A stretch of 64,000 bases of DNA, taken from assembly GCF_019247615.1 (NCBI RefSeq), contig NZ_JAFBAT010000192.1, positions 1 to 64,000 on the forward strand, given 5' to 3'. Positions 9,994 to 42,123 of the stretch are shown here, piece after piece (position 1 is the first letter of the stretch; the number at the start of each line of letters is the position of its first letter). The position numbers were made by a program, and so were the translations under genes. This DNA comes from Mycobacterium sp. GTDB lineage: Bacteria; Actinomycetota; Actinomycetes; Mycobacteriales; Mycobacteriaceae. The notes under the pieces were generated by a model, which was not told the DNA's origin, searched no databases, and worked only from the letters and a program-made list of their open reading frames with translations.

Positions 9994-10707
9994 ATGAGCA
10001 CCGCCGTGACCGCTCTGCCGGCCATCCTCGACCCGATGTACTGGCTGGGCGCCAATGGCGTCTTCGGCTCCGCGGTGCTGCCCGGGATCCTGGTCATCGT
10101 CTTCATCGAGACGGGGCTGCTGTTTCCGCTGCTGCCCGGCGAGTCGCTGCTGTTCACCGGCGGCCTGCTGTGCGCGCACCCCAACCCGCCAACGAGCATC
10201 TGGGTGCTGGCGCCCGCCGTCGCCACGGTCGCGGTGCTGGGCGACCAGACGGGCTATTTCATCGGGCGTCGTATCGGACCGGCGCTGTTCAAGAAGGAAG
10301 ATTCCCGGTTCTTCAAAAAGCACTATGTGACCGAGTCACACGCATTCTTCGAGAAGTACGGGCCATGGGCGGTCATCCTGGCCCGATTCGCGCCGTTCAT
10401 CCGGACGTTCGTTCCGGTGATCGCCGGGGTGTCGTACATGCGCTATCCCCTATTCCTCGGGTTCGACATCGTCGGCGGCATCGTGTGGGGCGGCGGCGTG
10501 ACGCTGGCCGGCTACTTCCTGGGCGGCGCGCCGTTCGTCCACCAGAACCTGGAAAAGATCATCCTGGGAATCCTGATCGTCTCGCTGATGCCGGCCATGA
10601 TCGCGGCGTGGCGCGGGTTCCAGGGCCGGCGCCGCGCGGGTCGCGCGGGGAACCCGGATCCCGAGTCAGGGCACCCGAGTTCTGCGGTACGCAACGAAAG
10701 CGTCTAG
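9994..10707 (+). CDS. DedA/SNARE-associated family membrane protein (Rv0364-like)
   Basis: A 237-aa polytopic protein with the DedA core: FIETGLLFPLLPGESLLFTGGLL, GDQTGYFIGRRIGP, FFEKYGPWAVILARFAPFIRTFVPVIAGVSYM and WGGGVTLAGYFLGG. The conserved Glu and the F/R-x-x-P-x-x-R-T motif of the re-entrant loops are present. Members are proposed lipid scramblases/flippases that help maintain the envelope. Its last 42 nt overlap the convergent AACS gene. Confidence 0.9.
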   Translation: MSTAVTALPAILDPMYWLGANGVFGSAVLPGILVIVFIETGLLFPLLPGESLLFTGGLLCAHPNPPTSIWVLAPAVATVAVLGDQTGYFIGRRIGPALFKKEDSRFFKKHYVTESHAFFEKYGPWAVILARFAPFIRTFVPVIAGVSYMRYPLFLGFDIVGGIVWGGGVTLAGYFLGGAPFVHQNLEKIILGILIVSLMPAMIAAWRGFQGRRRAGRAGNPDPESGHPSSAVRNESV

Positions 10708-12627
10708 CAGTTCGGGTCGGTCGATCGAACTCTGCTGCACGGCGTCGCCCGGGGCCGTCCCGAGCAAGATCCGCTTGATCGGGATTTCCAGCCGTTTGCC
10801 GGTCAGTGTTCGAGGTATGCCCGGAACCTCGAGGATGTCGTCGGGCACATGCCGCGGCGACGCGTGCCGGCGGATCTCCGCCGCGATCCGCGACCGCAGC
10901 TCGTCGTCGAGGGTGACACCGTCTTCGGTGTCGACGAAGAGCGGCATCCAGTAGCCGCCGTCGTCCTGCTCGATGCCGACCACCAGACAGTCACGCACCT
11001 CGGGCAGCCGTTCGACGGCGGTATAGATCTCCGCGCTGCCAATCCGGATGCCGAGCCGGTTCAGGGTGGCATCCGAACGGCCGTGCACTACAACGGATCC
11101 CCGCTCGGTGATGGTGATCCAGTCGCCGTGCCACCACACCCCCGGGTATCGGTCGAAATAGGCGGCGTGGTAGCGGCTGCCGTCGTCGTCGTTCCAGAAG
11201 AACACCGGCATCGAGGGCATCGGCTTGGTCAGCACGAGTTCGCCCTCCTCGCCGACCACCGGATTGTTTGGCCCGGACCAGGATTCGATGGCCGCGCCCA
11301 GGCAGATGCAGTTCAGCTCCCCGGCCACGACCGGCAGGATCGGGCACCCACCGATGAAGGCCGTGCAGACGTCGGTGCCACCGCTCATCGATACCACCGG
11401 CACCGACCGGCCGAGTCCCTCCTGTACCCAGCGGAATCCGGACGCCGGCAACGGCGATCCGGTGGAGCCCACGGCGCGCACCGCCTCCAGCCGGTAGGAG
11501 GCACCCGGCTTCAACTCCTTCTTGGCGCACGCCAACAGGTAGCCCGCCCCGGCCCCGAGCACCGTCACACCGGCCTCGGCCGCGACCCGCCAGAGGGCAT
11601 CGGTCGTCCCGTGGGTGGGGCTGCCGTCGTACAGCACGATCGTGGCGCCGACGAGCAGCCCGGACAACAGCAGGTTCCACATCATCCAGCTGGTGGACGA
11701 ATACCACAGGAAGCGGTCGTCGGGGTGCAGGTCGAGCTGCAGGCTCAGATACTTCAGGTGCTCGAGCACGATACCGCCATGCCCGTGCACGATGCCCTTC
11801 GGCTTGCCGGTGGTTCCCGACGAAAACAGCACCCACAGCGGGTGGGCGAACGGCACCGGCGTAATATCTTGAGCCGCATCGGATTCCACCGCGTGCGCCC
11901 ACGGCACCGCTTCCTTGCCCAAGTCGTCGGGCAATTCGAGGCCTAACCGCGGCACCACCACCGTCGCCCGCAGAGTGGGCATGGCGCACCGGATCTCGGT
12001 CAATTCCTCGCGGCGATCGACGCGGTTGCCCCCGTAGACCGAGCCGTCGCTGGCGACCAGCACGGTGGGTTCCAGCTGACCCAGCCGCGCGATCACGCCG
12101 TCGACGGCCATGTCCTGGTTGCACACCGCCCACACCGCACCCACGCTGGCGGCGGCCAGGGCGGCGACGACGGCCTCGGCGACGTTGGGCAGGTATCCGA
12201 CGACGCTGTCGCCGGGTTTGACGTCGAGGCCGCGTAGGTAGGCGGCGAACGCCGCGGTCTCCCGCTGCAGACGGGCCCACGACCACTCGCCCGTACCGTC
12301 TTCACCGACGACGACCAGGGCGGGCCGCTCGTCCGTGGCGTTCCGGAACACCTCGGTCGCGTAGTTCAGCGTGGCGCCCGGAAACCACTCGGCGCCGGGC
12401 ATGGAACGGTTGCCCAGCACGGCCCCCGGCCGGCTGTGCGCCCGAATGTCGAAGAAATTCCAGACCGCGTCCCAGAACCACTCGATGTCATCCACTGACT
12501 TGTGCCACAGCTCGTGGTAATCGCCGTACTCGCCGCGATCGGTTTCCGCCAGCCAGGCCAGGAAGCGGGTGAGGTTGGCGCCGGCGAGCGTTGCCTCGTC
12601 GGGAACCCAGCCGCCGGTTTCGGTCAT
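10666..12627 (-). CDS. Acetoacetyl-CoA synthetase (acetoacetate-CoA ligase)
   Basis: A 653-aa ANL-superfamily adenylate-forming enzyme. The N-terminal ACAS-type cap (DYHELWHKSVDDIEWFWDAVWNFF) is followed by WFPGATLNYATEV. The P-loop-like A3 motif is LFSSGTTGKPKGIVHGHGG, followed by FLWYSSTSWMMWN, W(Y)HGDW, and the A8 hinge RSDATLNRLGIRIGSAEIY. The acyl-adenylate Lys lies in LTGKRLEIPIKRIL. The long cap and W-rich blocks favour acetoacetate over acetate. It would activate acetoacetate with ATP and CoA. The ATG overlaps the GH76 stop, so the two form an operon. Confidence 0.9.
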   Translation of the reverse strand: MTETGGWVPDEATLAGANLTRFLAWLAETDRGEYGDYHELWHKSVDDIEWFWDAVWNFFDIRAHSRPGAVLGNRSMPGAEWFPGATLNYATEVFRNATDERPALVVVGEDGTGEWSWARLQRETAAFAAYLRGLDVKPGDSVVGYLPNVAEAVVAALAAASVGAVWAVCNQDMAVDGVIARLGQLEPTVLVASDGSVYGGNRVDRREELTEIRCAMPTLRATVVVPRLGLELPDDLGKEAVPWAHAVESDAAQDITPVPFAHPLWVLFSSGTTGKPKGIVHGHGGIVLEHLKYLSLQLDLHPDDRFLWYSSTSWMMWNLLLSGLLVGATIVLYDGSPTHGTTDALWRVAAEAGVTVLGAGAGYLLACAKKELKPGASYRLEAVRAVGSTGSPLPASGFRWVQEGLGRSVPVVSMSGGTDVCTAFIGGCPILPVVAGELNCICLGAAIESWSGPNNPVVGEEGELVLTKPMPSMPVFFWNDDDGSRYHAAYFDRYPGVWWHGDWITITERGSVVVHGRSDATLNRLGIRIGSAEIYTAVERLPEVRDCLVVGIEQDDGGYWMPLFVDTEDGVTLDDELRSRIAAEIRRHASPRHVPDDILEVPGIPRTLTGKRLEIPIKRILLGTAPGDAVQQSSIDRPELLDAFVAYRRTRVP

Positions 12628-13754
12628 TTGTCCCTCACGGCGGTGACGTTACAGGCGGCCTCCATCAGCATCCAGCCGGAAAGCTGCACCGACAGATCAC
12701 GCTCGGCGATCTCAGAAGCGTTGACCGCACCCTCGACGAACTCCGCCTCCGTGCCACCCGCAGTGGGCAGCTCCGCGTCGCGGTCCCAAAACGCGCCGAA
12801 CAACGGCAGCCCGTCCACGGTTTGCCGGTAGTCCCACGCGGATTTCGCGCTGGCCAGCACGATCGTGCGGGCGGTGTCGCGGGCCACGGCGTCGTCGGCG
12901 GAGTCGCCGGGCAGCGTGGTCGCCACCAGCGCGAGGTAGCGGGCGGTGATGCCGGCGAACAGGCCGCCGTCCCCGCCGCCGGCGCCCCTCAGCACCCCCG
13001 ACGGCGCCATCTGCTCGCTGACGGCCGCGACCAGCCGATGCACCCGCGCCCCGTGGCGGGCCCTGACTTCAGCCCCGGTGCGCGCGGCCAGCTCCGTTTC
13101 CAGGCCGAGCACCACACCCTGGCAGTAGGTGTACTGCGCGCGAACCAGCGAGCCGCCCTTGATCCCGTCGAACACCAGGTGCGTCTCCGGGTCGATGAGG
13201 GTGCGGTCGATCCAGTCGGCCATCTGCTCGGCCCGCTTCAGCCGGTCTCCCTCGGCGGGATAGCGGGCGAGGAAGATTCCCGCCGGACCGTTGGCGGGAG
13301 CGTTGAAAAACTGGTCCTGCTTGCGCCATGGGATACCGCCGCCGTCCTCGGGCACCCAGGCCCTGACGAATTGGTCGCACAGCTTGGGCAGCGCGCGCCG
13401 GCGCTGGACGCCGACTATGCGCGCGGCGCGCTCCAGCGCCAATGCCAGCCACGCCATGTCGTCGTAGTAGTCGTTGGTCCAGGAGAAATTGTTGCGCATC
13501 CGGTGTGACCGGACCTGGCGGTTGATCTTGGCACGCCTGTCCGGCCGCGCGTCGCGCTGCTGCGCGTCGACCAGGCAATCGAGCAGGTGCGCCTGCCACC
13601 AGTAGTGCCACGTGCCGAACAACCGGTCGCGCCGCACCGCCGGCCAGGCGACCACTCCCAGCTGCGTTCCCGGCAACCCCCAGAGTCGTTTGAGGTGGCG
13701 TTGGGTTACGGCGGCTTCGGAGCTGGCGGCACGATTGGCCCACAACTGATCCAT
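12624..13754 (-). CDS. Glycoside hydrolase family 76 protein (Rv0365c-like)
   Basis: Start MDQLWANRAASSEAAV gives 376 aa, the length I recall for Rv0365c; the 409-aa ORF begins too early. The tandem-Asp signature NDYYDDMAWLALAL (about residues 106-119) fits the catalytic DD of GH76 alpha-1,6-mannanases. GGIPWRKQ, FFNAPANGPAGIFLARY and YTYCQGVVLGLETELA follow the (alpha/alpha)6 barrel pattern. There is no signal peptide, so it probably acts in the cytoplasm, perhaps on mannan-type glycans. It shares an ATGA overlap with the downstream AACS gene. Confidence 0.85.
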   Translation of the reverse strand: MDQLWANRAASSEAAVTQRHLKRLWGLPGTQLGVVAWPAVRRDRLFGTWHYWWQAHLLDCLVDAQQRDARPDRRAKINRQVRSHRMRNNFSWTNDYYDDMAWLALALERAARIVGVQRRRALPKLCDQFVRAWVPEDGGGIPWRKQDQFFNAPANGPAGIFLARYPAEGDRLKRAEQMADWIDRTLIDPETHLVFDGIKGGSLVRAQYTYCQGVVLGLETELAARTGAEVRARHGARVHRLVAAVSEQMAPSGVLRGAGGGDGGLFAGITARYLALVATTLPGDSADDAVARDTARTIVLASAKSAWDYRQTVDGLPLFGAFWDRDAELPTAGGTEAEFVEGAVNASEIAERDLSVQLSGWMLMEAACNVTAVRDK

Positions 13755-13833
13755 ACCGCGATCCTGCCCTAGCGTGCCCTCCCCGCACACGCGACGCCCA
13801 GCCACCCACGACCGCACGGGCATGCTGGAGCCC

Positions 13834-14107
13834 ATGAGGACTTTGAGCGTCAATGGCGAGCGCCACCGTGGCCGTGTCCCCCATGCGGGTTACTCTCTCA
13901 CGCAGCGTGAGCGCCGTCGCGAGCCGAACCTGGCTGCGAATTACCGCCCGATTTCTCGCCGTGCGGTTCGGCTCGCGGCGCTAGTCGTCGTCGATCAGAT
14001 GGGCGAACGCCTGCAGATTCTTCAGCGACTGACGCGCGCCACGACGTCGACGCCGAGGACGACACGCCGCTGCTATACGTATTGCGCAACCACCTGGGCG
14101 AAACTCC
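13834..14107 (+). pseudogene. Broken [2Fe-2S] subunit of a molybdenum hydroxylase (N-terminal scrap)
   Basis: The ATG at 13834 starts MRTLSVNGERH, the usual beginning of an IorA/CoxS-type small subunit. After about 176 bp of unrelated DNA the same protein resumes in another frame as RHDVDAEDDTPLLYVLRNHLGET (from 14037). It stops just before the first cluster-binding cysteines should appear. At about 14100-14108 it joins the C-terminal part of a large subunit in yet another frame. So the gene suffered an insertion and then, or also, a deletion. Confidence 0.7.
13867..14042. repeat. About 176-bp insert with two inverted repeats
   Basis: It splits the small-subunit scrap between RH and its repeat, with CGCCAC on each side (13861-13866 and 14037-14042), perhaps a target duplication. 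Inside are CTCACG-CAG-CGTGAG (13897-13911) and a 13-bp perfect repeat, CGCGAGCCGAACC / GGTTCGGCTCGCG (13918-13930, 13965-13977), spaced 34 nt. On the minus strand its right part reads like a gene 3' end, QSLKNLQAFAHLIDDD-stop. No transposase is present. Confidence 0.5.
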
Positions 14108-14821
14108 GTGCCGGGCTATGACTTTCCGGCCTACCGGGTGACCAACCACCTGGTGACCGAGATGCCCCTGCGTACCTCGGCACTGCGTTCCCTCGGCGCG
14201 TTCATCAATGTCTTTGCGGCGGAGTCGTTCATGGATGAACTGGCGTCGGCCGCGGGTCGCGATCCGGTCGAATTCCGGTTGGCGCATCTGTCGGATCCCC
14301 GCGCGCGAGCGGTGCTGCGGGCTGCGGCATCGCGGGCCGGCTGGACCGAGTGGACGCCGAGCGATGCGGCGGGTCACGGCATCAGCTATGCGCGCTACAA
14401 GAACTCGGCCGCCTATTGCGCGGTCGTTGCCGAGGTGGAGGCGGTCGATCAGGTGCGGGTGTGCCGGCTCGTCATCGCCGTGGATGCTGGGCTGATCATC
14501 AATCCGGACGGCGCGGCCAATCAGATCGAAGGCGGCGCGGTCCAGGCCACCAGCTGGACGCTCAAGGAGCGGGTGCGCTTCGACCGCTTCAACGTCACGA
14601 GTGACACGTGGGAGACCTACCCCATCCTGCGCTTCTCCGATGTGCCCTCGGTCGAGGTGGAACTTGCTGCGGCCGGAGCTAACCCGTCGCTGGGTGTCGG
14701 CGAGTGCGCCCAGGGACCGACCGCCGCCGCAATCGCCAACGCCGTGTGCCACGCGCTCGGCGTCCGGGTGCGGTCACTGCCGCTGACCCGCGATCGGCTC
14801 ATCGCCGCGATGGCCAACTAG
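14108..14821 (+). pseudogene. C-terminal remnant of a molybdopterin-binding large subunit (IorB/aldehyde oxidase-like)
   Basis: An open frame of 237 codons that covers only the last third of a roughly 700-residue Mo-hydroxylase large subunit. MPLRTSALRSLGAFINVFAAESFMDELA, the Mo-cofactor stretch VIAVDAGLIINPDGAANQIEGGAVQATSWTLKE and the active-site Glu block LGVGECAQGPTAAAIANAV are all typical of the isoquinoline 1-oxidoreductase beta type. The N-terminal domains are missing, and the GTG at 14108 is only the first codon after the deletion joint. It cannot make a working enzyme. The 3' end overlaps the convergent CoxE gene by 23 nt. Confidence 0.85.
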
Positions 14822-16010
14822 CCAGCGCGGCCAGCAACTCCCGCAGCCCGGTCAGCGAATGGGCGGGCAGGAGCAAGTCGCAGAACGGCAGCGCCGCGGC
14901 CATCGAACCGGCCAGCGGCTCGTAGCCACCATGCGCCGCGCGGGGATTCAGCCACACCAGCATCGCGGCGCGGCGGCGCAGCCTGGCCATCGCGTGCGCG
15001 AGGACATCGGGCGGGTCGGCGTCCCACCCGTCGGAGGCGATGATCACCACCGCGCCGCGCAGCGCATTGCCGTGCGGCGGCGTCAGCAGGGCGGCGAGGC
15101 TGCGCCCGATGAAGGTGCCCCCGTACCGGTCGGCGACTTTCGCGTTGGCTTTCTGCAGCGCCACCTCGGCGGAGCGGTGGGACAGCACCGAGGTGAGCCG
15201 GGTGAGCGACGTCGAAAACGCGAAGACCTCCGTCCGGGCACCAGCCCGGCGTACCACCGCGGCGCGCATCAGGTGCAGATATACCGCCGCATAGGGCTGC
15301 ATCGAGCGGCTCACGTCACACACCAGGACGACGCGGCGGGGCCGGCGGCGGGGCTGCGTTCGCGCCAGGACAACCGGTTCCCAGCCGGTCGCGCGCGATG
15401 CGTTCATGGTCGCCCGCAGGTCGATGCGCTTTCCGCCGGCACTGGGTTCGAACCGCATGCTGCGGCGCCGCGGCCAGCGCGCGATGCTCGCCTCCAGCCA
15501 GGAACCGAGCAGCCGAAGGTCGTCGGGATCCAAGCGGTCCAACGGTTCGTCGGCGAGTGCGGCCAGGCGGCTGGGCAACAGATCGGGCAGTAGGACGCTC
15601 GCTTGTGCGGCGTCGGCGTCGTCGCTCACGGCCCGGGTGGCCCAGGGCAGTTTTCGGGAGCCGGCGCCGGCGGGGCTCTCCGCGAGCTGGACACTGCCGG
15701 CCGAGGGTGTTTTCGGGCCCCAACCGGACAGGAGCGGCTCGGGCCTGGTTGCAGCGTCGGGCCGCGCCGCACCGAACACCGCTTCAAAGACGGCGTCGAA
15801 GGAGACAAGATCTTCCATCCGGCTGACCAAGGTCAGCCGCGCCGCCCAATACAGTGCCGACGTGGTGTCCGGCGCCAGCCGGCGGAGCGCCTGCACGAAA
15901 CTCGCCGGGCCATCGGGGGGGACAAGGACCCCGACACCGCGCAGGCGCGTCACCAGGGCGGCCGCGAACGCCGCCAAATCGGCTCCCCGCAACAGGATTG
16001 GGGTGCTCAT
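14799..16010 (-). CDS. coxE: VWA-domain protein, CoxE-like (Rv0368c-like)
   Basis: A 403-aa protein with a C-terminal von Willebrand A domain. The MIDAS motif is VLVCDVSRSMQPYAAV (DxSxS), and GGTFIGRSLAALL and IIASDGWDADPPDVL supply the other metal-site positions. CoxE-type proteins work with the MoxR ATPase CoxD in maturing the CO dehydrogenase active site. It is the last gene of the cox cluster, 6 bp after coxG. Length equals that recalled for Rv0368c. Confidence 0.88.
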   Translation of the reverse strand: MSTPILLRGADLAAFAAALVTRLRGVGVLVPPDGPASFVQALRRLAPDTTSALYWAARLTLVSRMEDLVSFDAVFEAVFGAARPDAATRPEPLLSGWGPKTPSAGSVQLAESPAGAGSRKLPWATRAVSDDADAAQASVLLPDLLPSRLAALADEPLDRLDPDDLRLLGSWLEASIARWPRRRSMRFEPSAGGKRIDLRATMNASRATGWEPVVLARTQPRRRPRRVVLVCDVSRSMQPYAAVYLHLMRAAVVRRAGARTEVFAFSTSLTRLTSVLSHRSAEVALQKANAKVADRYGGTFIGRSLAALLTPPHGNALRGAVVIIASDGWDADPPDVLAHAMARLRRRAAMLVWLNPRAAHGGYEPLAGSMAAALPFCDLLLPAHSLTGLRELLAALASWPSRR

Positions 16011-39755: not shown

Positions 39756-39761
39756 TATAAT
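39756..39761 (+). promoter_or_regulatory. Consensus -10 box for the second hydroxylase operon
   Basis: A perfect TATAAT, unusual in this GC-rich genome, 40 bp before the large-subunit ATG. It lies immediately upstream of the divergent MobA-like gene's start. A weak -35 is possible around 39725-39736. Confidence 0.55.
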
Positions 39762-39801
39762 GCCATTGGGCTTCTCATTTGACGACAATGGATGGAGCGC
39801 G

Positions 39802-42123
39802 ATGGCTCACGACGCCCCGGCGCCGCGGTACGCCGGAACGCGCGTTCAACGGGTGGAGGACGGCCGGCTGCTGACCGGCCGCGGGAGCTTCGTCGACGAC
39901 ATCTCCCGCCCGGGCATGCTGCACGCCTGCTTCGTCCGCAGCCCGTTCGCGCGCGCAGCGATCAACGGCATTGATGCCTCGGCGGCGCTGGCGCTGCCGG
40001 GAGTGCGCGCGGTGTTCACCGCGGCCGACCTCAACCCCGACGCCTGCGAGGCGTGGCACGCCGTGGCCGGCAAGGACGTTCCGGACACCCCGCGGCCGCC
40101 GCTGGCCGACGGCGAGGTCAAGTTCGTCGGCGACCCGGTCGCCCTGATCGTCGCCGAGAACCGCTACATCGCCGAGGACGCCGTGGAACTGGTCGACGTC
40201 GACTACGAGCCGCTGCCGGCAATCGTCGACTTCACCCGGGCGCAGTCCTCGGATGTGCTGGTGCACGAGAGCTACGCGAACAACGTCGCGGGCGGACTGG
40301 CCGGAGCCCCGCCGGACGAGGAGGTATTCGCATCGGCGGCGTGCGTGGTGAAAGAGCGCATCTACCAACAGATTTACGCGCCGGTGCCGATCGAGACGCG
40401 CGGACTGATCGTCGAGTGGGCGCCGGCCTCCGAAGAGCTCACCATGTGGGCGTCCACCCAGACCCCGCACGAATTGCGGGCCTTCTGTGCGCGCCTGTTG
40501 GGCATTGCGGCGCAACGCGTTCGGGTGATCGCGCGCGACACGGGCGGCGGCTTCGGCCAGAAGGTGGTGCCGATGCGCGAGGACATGTGCATCATGCTGG
40601 CCGCCCGCAAGGTGCCCGCGGCGCTCAAGTGGATCGAAGACCGGCGCGAGAACCTCATGTCGGCCGGGCAGGCGCGTCATGTCACGGGCACCGCGCGGAT
40701 GGCGTTCGACGACGAGGGCAACATCGCAGCGGCCGACATCGACTTCCTGCAGGACGTGGGCGCATATCCGACGCCCTACCCCGTGCTGACCACGGCCGCG
40801 ATCGGCATGTTCTTCCCGGGGCCCTACCGCGTGCCGAAGGCCAGCTTCAAATATCAGACGGTCTTCTCCAACACCAGCGGTCTGGCCGCCTACCGGGGCC
40901 CGTGGCAGTTCGAGTCGCTGGCGCGCGAAATCCTCCTCGATGTCGCCGCACGCACAATGAACATCGATCCGGTCGAGCTCCGCCGCCGCAACCTGCTGCG
41001 CCGCGACGAGATGCCCTACCTCAACCCCAACGGCATGCCGTATGACCACGTCGCCCCGATCGAGACATTCGAGCAAGCGGTGAAAGTCCTTGACCACGAG
41101 GGTTTTCGCAAGGAGCAGGCCGATGCGCTGGGCCAGGGCCGCTACCTGGGTGTCGGCTTCTCGGCCTACATCGAGCCGACGGGCGCGGCGACCGGCCACC
41201 TGGCCACCGAAGGCGCGACCATCCGGATCGAGCCGACGGGCACGATCAACGTCTACGTCAACGGCGGTTCGAGCGGAAACAGCTTGGAAACCACCGTGAT
41301 TCAGCTGGCCGCCGACGCCCTGGGCGCCGATATCGACGACGTGGCCACCATCCAGGGCGACACCGCGATCACGCCCTACGGCGCCGGGACACAGGGCAGC
41401 CGCAGCGGGCCGATGACCGCAGGAGCCGTCGACGAGGCGGCAAGAATCCTTCGCCAGAAAATCGTCGCGCTTGCGGCGCATCGCCTCAAGGTGGCCGAAT
41501 CCGAGGTGGAGCTGGCGCATTCGACGGCGTTGGTGCGCGGCGACGCGTCGAAGCGGGTGACCTTCGGCGAGCTCGCCTACCTCGCGTACTACCAGCCTCA
41601 GATGCTGCCCCCGGGAATGTCGCCCGAGCTCGAGGCAACCGCCCGCTACGTCGCCAAGGCGCCCATCCTGTGGTCCAACGCAACCCATGTCTGCACCTGT
41701 GAAGTCGACCCGGCGACGGGCAAAGTCACCCTGCTGCGCTACATCGTCAGCGAGGACGTCGGGCCCATGATCAACCCGGCGATCGTCGAGGGCCAGATCG
41801 CCGGCGGCACCGTCCAGGGCATCGGCGGCGCGTTGCTGGAGAACCTCGCCTACGACGAGGACGGCAACCCCCTGGCCACCACGTTCGTCGACTATCTGCT
41901 GCCGACCACCACCGAGGTCCCGCCGATCGAGTTCGGCCACGTCGAGATCCCCGGTCCCGGCCCCGGCGGGTACAAGGGCGCGGGCGAGGGCGGAGCGATC
42001 GGCTCGGTGCCCGCGGTGATCAACGCGATCAACGACGCGCTGGCGCCGCTGGGCGTGACGATCACCCGGCTCCCGGCCACCCCGGCGGCGATCGCGTCGC
42101 TGCTCGCGGAGGCCGACCGGTGA
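39802..42123 (+). CDS. Molybdenum hydroxylase large subunit, non-CO type
   Basis: Start MAHDAPAPRYAGTRVQRVEDG (773 aa); the 787-aa ORF starts too early. It has the CoxL/xanthine dehydrogenase fold: TGRGSFVDDISRPGMLHACFVRSPFA, DTGGGFGQKVVPMREDM, GTQGSRSGPMTAGAVDEAA and the active-site Glu in YKGAGEGGAIGSVP. The catalytic loop is LAAYRGPWQFESL, lacking the Cys of AYxCSFR, so it is not a form I CO dehydrogenase. It probably hydroxylates an aldehyde or N-heterocycle with a Mo=S centre. The stop overlaps the FAD-subunit GTG. Confidence 0.9.
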   Translation: MAHDAPAPRYAGTRVQRVEDGRLLTGRGSFVDDISRPGMLHACFVRSPFARAAINGIDASAALALPGVRAVFTAADLNPDACEAWHAVAGKDVPDTPRPPLADGEVKFVGDPVALIVAENRYIAEDAVELVDVDYEPLPAIVDFTRAQSSDVLVHESYANNVAGGLAGAPPDEEVFASAACVVKERIYQQIYAPVPIETRGLIVEWAPASEELTMWASTQTPHELRAFCARLLGIAAQRVRVIARDTGGGFGQKVVPMREDMCIMLAARKVPAALKWIEDRRENLMSAGQARHVTGTARMAFDDEGNIAAADIDFLQDVGAYPTPYPVLTTAAIGMFFPGPYRVPKASFKYQTVFSNTSGLAAYRGPWQFESLAREILLDVAARTMNIDPVELRRRNLLRRDEMPYLNPNGMPYDHVAPIETFEQAVKVLDHEGFRKEQADALGQGRYLGVGFSAYIEPTGAATGHLATEGATIRIEPTGTINVYVNGGSSGNSLETTVIQLAADALGADIDDVATIQGDTAITPYGAGTQGSRSGPMTAGAVDEAARILRQKIVALAAHRLKVAESEVELAHSTALVRGDASKRVTFGELAYLAYYQPQMLPPGMSPELEATARYVAKAPILWSNATHVCTCEVDPATGKVTLLRYIVSEDVGPMINPAIVEGQIAGGTVQGIGGALLENLAYDEDGNPLATTFVDYLLPTTTEVPPIEFGHVEIPGPGPGGYKGAGEGGAIGSVPAVINAINDALAPLGVTITRLPATPAAIASLLAEADR

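Follow-up and report, generated by a model that had tools for sequence, protein, structure and literature searches.

A segment at 13822-14821 of a 64,000-nucleotide stretch of Mycobacterium DNA (hereafter the window) lies between a GH76-family gene and a CO dehydrogenase (Cox) cluster and resembles pieces of a molybdenum hydroxylase, which raises the question of whether it is a working gene or what is left of one. Our answer, to which we give a probability of roughly 0.93, is that it is the scar of a recent, lineage-specific inactivation of a two-subunit hydroxylase of the IorAB/AldFH type, whose genes ancestrally lay between GH76 and the Cox cluster. The left flank is marked by the GH76-family gene (12624-13853, minus strand; Pfam Glyco_hydro_76, 2e-33), which is syntenic in relatives and whose true start is probably near 13755, because the alignments with homologs do not begin until about residue 12-34 of the longest ORF. 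The right flank marker, with which the CO dehydrogenase cluster ends, is a gene for a CoxE-like VWA protein (14799-16010, minus strand; Pfam VWA_CoxE, 7.6e-71). It overlaps the stop codon of the hydroxylase fragment and the scar is therefore found at this same end of the cluster, where an earlier sequence-only reading had placed it. CoxL of this adjoining cluster scores 1455 bits against TIGR02416.

Three coding remnants can be recognized in the segment, which is what is left of two wrecked genes, one for a small [2Fe-2S] subunit and the other for a large molybdopterin subunit. The first (13822-13866, plus strand; MLEPMRTLSVNGERH) reads ATGCTGGAGCCCATG...GTCAATGGCGAGCGCCAC and matches the beginning of the small subunit in DNA alignments to the intact genes of M. 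interjectum, M. paraense and M. terramassiliense; its start, at 13822 or 13834, corresponds to that of the 157-aa [2Fe-2S] subunit (ATGCTGGAGCCCATGGGAGATCTGACCGTCAAC in M. interjectum vs ATGCTGGAGCCCATGAGGACTTTGAGCGTCAAT in the window). The second (14043-14099, plus strand) contains the small-subunit codons DVDAEDDTPLLYVLRNHLG up to a deletion junction and is 82-92% identical to intact small-subunit genes. The third (14100-14821, plus strand) is the last third of the large subunit and is open from a GTG at 14108; it keeps a GVGE motif that we take to be the active-site loop, the role of its glutamate being assumed from the xanthine oxidase family. The frame at 14108-14821 (plus strand) matches only parts of the Pfam domains MoCoBD_2 (1.3e-15) and MoCoBD_1 (1.2e-7), and over its whole length it can be aligned with residues ~467-703 of a large subunit of 703 aa. 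Its best matches are large subunits of the XdhA/PaoC type, with the CO dehydrogenase large subunit matching weakly. Elsewhere in the window there is a second large molybdopterin subunit gene (39760-42123, plus strand; 787 aa) with all three domains, near one gene resembling an amino-acid permease and another resembling DnaK.

What survives is thus about 31 small-subunit codons and the final 237 of the large subunit, joined out of frame, and the small-subunit frame runs into large-subunit DNA to a stop at 14119-14121. All of the remaining small-subunit codons are upstream of the first cysteine, so that every cluster cysteine is gone, and about 466 large-subunit codons are missing; lacking the iron-sulfur ligands altogether and the greater part of the Mo-cofactor domain, the remnant is unable to make the enzyme. 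The sequence-only reading had described an out-of-frame join of a [2Fe-2S] start to the last third of a large subunit, with all cluster cysteines and most of the catalytic domain lost, and the alignments bear this out. Its scar, drawn at 13834-14821, is indeed a remnant of the pair, although it overlooked a 165-bp insert that interrupts the 5′ piece.

The same reading proposed that an ancestor held two adjacent Mo-hydroxylase loci, one of which was lost, and that an intact pair might be found between GH76 and CoxE in another species. Such a pair (157 aa and 703 aa) is present between these two genes, in the orientation of the remnant and on one contig, in at least eight relatives, and this supports the proposed ancestral arrangement. 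The loci include those of M. interjectum (L036/L101), M. paraense (L041/L098), M. terramassiliense (L094/L207) and M. palustre (L096), as well as L095, L038, L099/L209, L093 and L040/L112. The intact pairs are about 80-85% identical to the remnant, and in several relatives the pair directly abuts CoxE, with ~2 kb between them in L093 and L112. A tree of the GH76 gene places the window close to the species that carry the intact pair, its exact position being weakly supported.

The intact large subunit is, by its predicted domain order, of the isoquinoline-oxidoreductase (IorB/AldH) type, which is to be read as a class name only; in that sense the label used in the sequence-only reading was apt. 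In the M. interjectum protein (L101), MoCoBD_2 matches residues 16-143, Ald_Xan_dh_C 172-219 (below cut-off) and MoCoBD_1 289-422, a permuted order in which part of MoCoBD_2 is followed by the hammerhead domain, MoCoBD_1 and the end of MoCoBD_2; the C-terminal fragment in the window matches this last piece. The L101 small subunit matches Fer2 (1e-9) and Fer2_2 (5e-24) and has the cluster cysteines that the window has lost. The large subunit is collinear over residues 16-697 with an aldehyde dehydrogenase large subunit (8gy3_C), the only top solved structure that matches it collinearly over nearly its whole length, and the best structure match of the small subunit is the partner chain, 8gy3_B. 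None of the curated equivalog models matched the intact pair at its cut-off. The intact relatives share the two-subunit architecture of IorAB-type hydroxylases (isoquinoline 1-oxidoreductase, COG2080 + COG1529; membrane aldehyde dehydrogenase AldFGH, PDB 8gy3), with a [2Fe-2S] subunit of ~157 aa followed directly by a large subunit of ~703 aa in which a Mo-binding segment is N-terminal; unlike these systems, the window genome retains fragments only. The aerobic CO dehydrogenase (coxMSL with accessory coxDEFG) that directly adjoins the remnant belongs to the same xanthine-oxidase superfamily. However, the remnant matches CO dehydrogenase large-subunit models weakly (25 bits to TIGR02416 and 51 bits to NF040766), and the permuted domain order of its intact relatives is unlike that of CO dehydrogenase. 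A literature search found no relevant paper on an enzyme pair beside CO dehydrogenase. The M. interjectum Cox cluster (L101, 11573-15930) has two copies of the MoxR gene and also of parts of CoxG and CoxF.

There are two lesions in the pair. The first is an insertion: small-subunit DNA is present at 13822-13866, is interrupted by the insert at 13867-14031, and resumes at 14033-14099. The insert is copied in inverted orientation from a different locus in this genome (G000, a 4.5 Mb draft in 325 contigs), contig C237 at ~10305-10465, to which it has 94% identity over 173 bp including the edges. In it an intergenic palindrome is bracketed by the final codons of a YbjN-family gene and the opening codons of a phosphoglycerate-mutase-like gene of the histidine phosphatase superfamily, and Pfam confirms both source genes on C237 (YbjN, 1.4e-23; His_Phos_1, 1.6e-33). 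The insert is flanked by a target duplication of ~10 bp, the left copy of which (13857-13866; CGAGCGCCAC) ends the first remnant, with the right copy (14033-14042, plus strand; CGCGCGCCAC) being identical to it at 9 of 10 positions; the intact genes carry this stretch only once. None of the other congeners in a 397-genome sample carries the insert, and none has a whole-insert match above 79%. The second lesion is a deletion, in which a 4-bp GGGC microhomology (14096-14099) marks the passage from small-subunit to large-subunit sequence. LLYVL and PGYDF, 1810-1828 bp apart in the intact loci, are separated by 41 bp in the window, so that ~1.77 kb has been lost, comprising the rest of the small subunit and the ~466 large-subunit codons.

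We infer that two repair-type events broke the pair. In one, a staggered break in the small-subunit gene would have been filled by a captured copy of the 165-bp junction between the YbjN and phosphoglycerate-mutase-like genes, leaving the ~10-bp target duplication; in the other, a deletion of ~1.77 kb between GGGC microhomologies would have taken out the remaining small-subunit sequence along with two thirds of that of the large subunit. The two could have happened in either order, or together as one complex event. A captured copy with a duplication and a deletion at microhomology would fit end-joining repair, to judge from the junctions, as one of several possible routes, and G000 encodes the bacterial end-joining protein Ku (8.8e-53). 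A search of the literature on templated insertion in mycobacteria found no relevant paper.

A different origin for the insert would be transposition of a small mobile palindromic element together with flanking gene ends. The ~10-bp duplication around the insert would suit this, as would the imperfect palindrome within it (13914-13980), which is a member of a dispersed family with related copies within the genome and in other species. The palindrome is ~60 bp long (CGAGCCGAACC...GGTTCGGCTCG) and is found in G000 and many other mycobacterial genomes; copies in G000 are at C237:10351-10416, C300:598-661 and 1524-1583, C144:242-301 and C214:1242-1313, and its core pattern has 21 matches in G000 vs none for a reversed control. 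However, the edges of the insert do not coincide with the palindrome, and the copied segment extends well past it to include the coding ends of two unrelated genes, one on each side, whereas the other G000 copies examined share only the ~60-bp palindrome. We therefore regard transposition as an unlikely source of the insert. A related idea is that the palindrome helps to copy itself and neighbouring DNA into new sites, the scar then being a young and readable case with its ~10-bp target duplication; we offer this as a speculation with quite long odds against it. No Rfam family matched the scar, palindrome included, and the literature on the mycobacterial palindrome turned up mostly typing reviews.

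Returning to inactivation by insertion and deletion, its timing can be approached from both the insert and the fragment. Five substitutions and one 3-bp indel separate the insert from its source, and when these are polarised by two outgroup species, three substitutions fall on the insert side and two, plus the indel, on the source side. The fragment branch has a dN/dS of 0.12-0.20 and a dS of about 0.3 (three-point estimates), no higher than the intact branches. Few differences between insert and source, together with an unrelaxed dN/dS, indicate that the pair was lost late on the branch leading to the window, these counts being too small to date the event. Over the 4.8-kb left flank even the nearest relatives found reach only about 85% identity, and there is therefore no sister species in the set to narrow the date. 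None of the other genomes searched shares the window's scar. Judged from these comparisons, the loss is recent and private to the window's lineage among the genomes searched.

The low dN/dS could also be taken to mean that the 237-aa C-terminal frame remains functional, perhaps as a regulator or partner of other Mo-hydroxylases, and has been under selection since its truncation, and it is in keeping with this that all 237 codons are open, for which the chance of meeting no stop, given the composition, is about 0.03. An open frame with a constraint-like signal is, however, to be expected after a recent loss such as the young insert indicates; recent loss explains these features without proving itself by them. 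The fragment moreover has only parts of MoCoBD_1 and MoCoBD_2. It finds relatives at E ≤ 1e-40 in 28 of 249 genomes of the genus (the window's own included), and in every other genome of the 28 the large-subunit frame is at least 658 aa; a short form, which the sequence-only reading had named as evidence against itself, is not seen among these matching congeners. A functional short gene was rejected because there are no short homologs, and we consider this account very improbable. We give least credence of all to an assembly artefact hiding an intact pair in the true chromosome, for although the genome is a draft in many contigs and the insert resembles another of its loci, the misassembly was rejected because insert and source are not identical (collapsed or chimeric reads would not give their substitutions and indel), the junctions bear the biological signatures of duplication and microhomology, and the fragment is present in single copy, its next best match in the assembly being another large subunit with just 43% identity.

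The pair has also been lost elsewhere. Genome G202, that of a relative, contains a separate scar in the same GH76-CoxE interval (L205, 5150-5480), in which the flanking DNA is 91% identical up to the small-subunit start and the start region is fused to the final ~42 large-subunit codons. It differs from the window's scar in being a single clean deletion, at a GGC microhomology and without an insert. This independent scar shows that the locus is dispensable. The sequence-only reading was thus right that one locus had been lost; its history is to be extended by the second lesion, by the recent and private character of the loss, and by the independent loss in G202. The slot is empty in L215, and in other mycobacteria (L210, L213, L216 and L217) it is occupied, between GH76 and the Cox genes, by ethanolamine ammonia-lyase genes; the large subunit, EutB, was confirmed by Pfam in one locus and the small subunit, EutC, is probable. 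With the slot holding the G202 scar, ethanolamine ammonia-lyase genes or nothing, the pair appears to be a dispensable occupant of a variable site.

The GH76-Cox interval is thereby confirmed as a variable slot in Mycobacterium that may hold an IorAB-type pair, ethanolamine ammonia-lyase or nothing, and its Mo-hydroxylase has been lost more than once. In the window's genome this amounts to ordinary gene decay that leaves the general picture unchanged, with a scar that is unusually readable: a captured copy with a known source provides a legible repair-type insertion in a natural mycobacterial genome.
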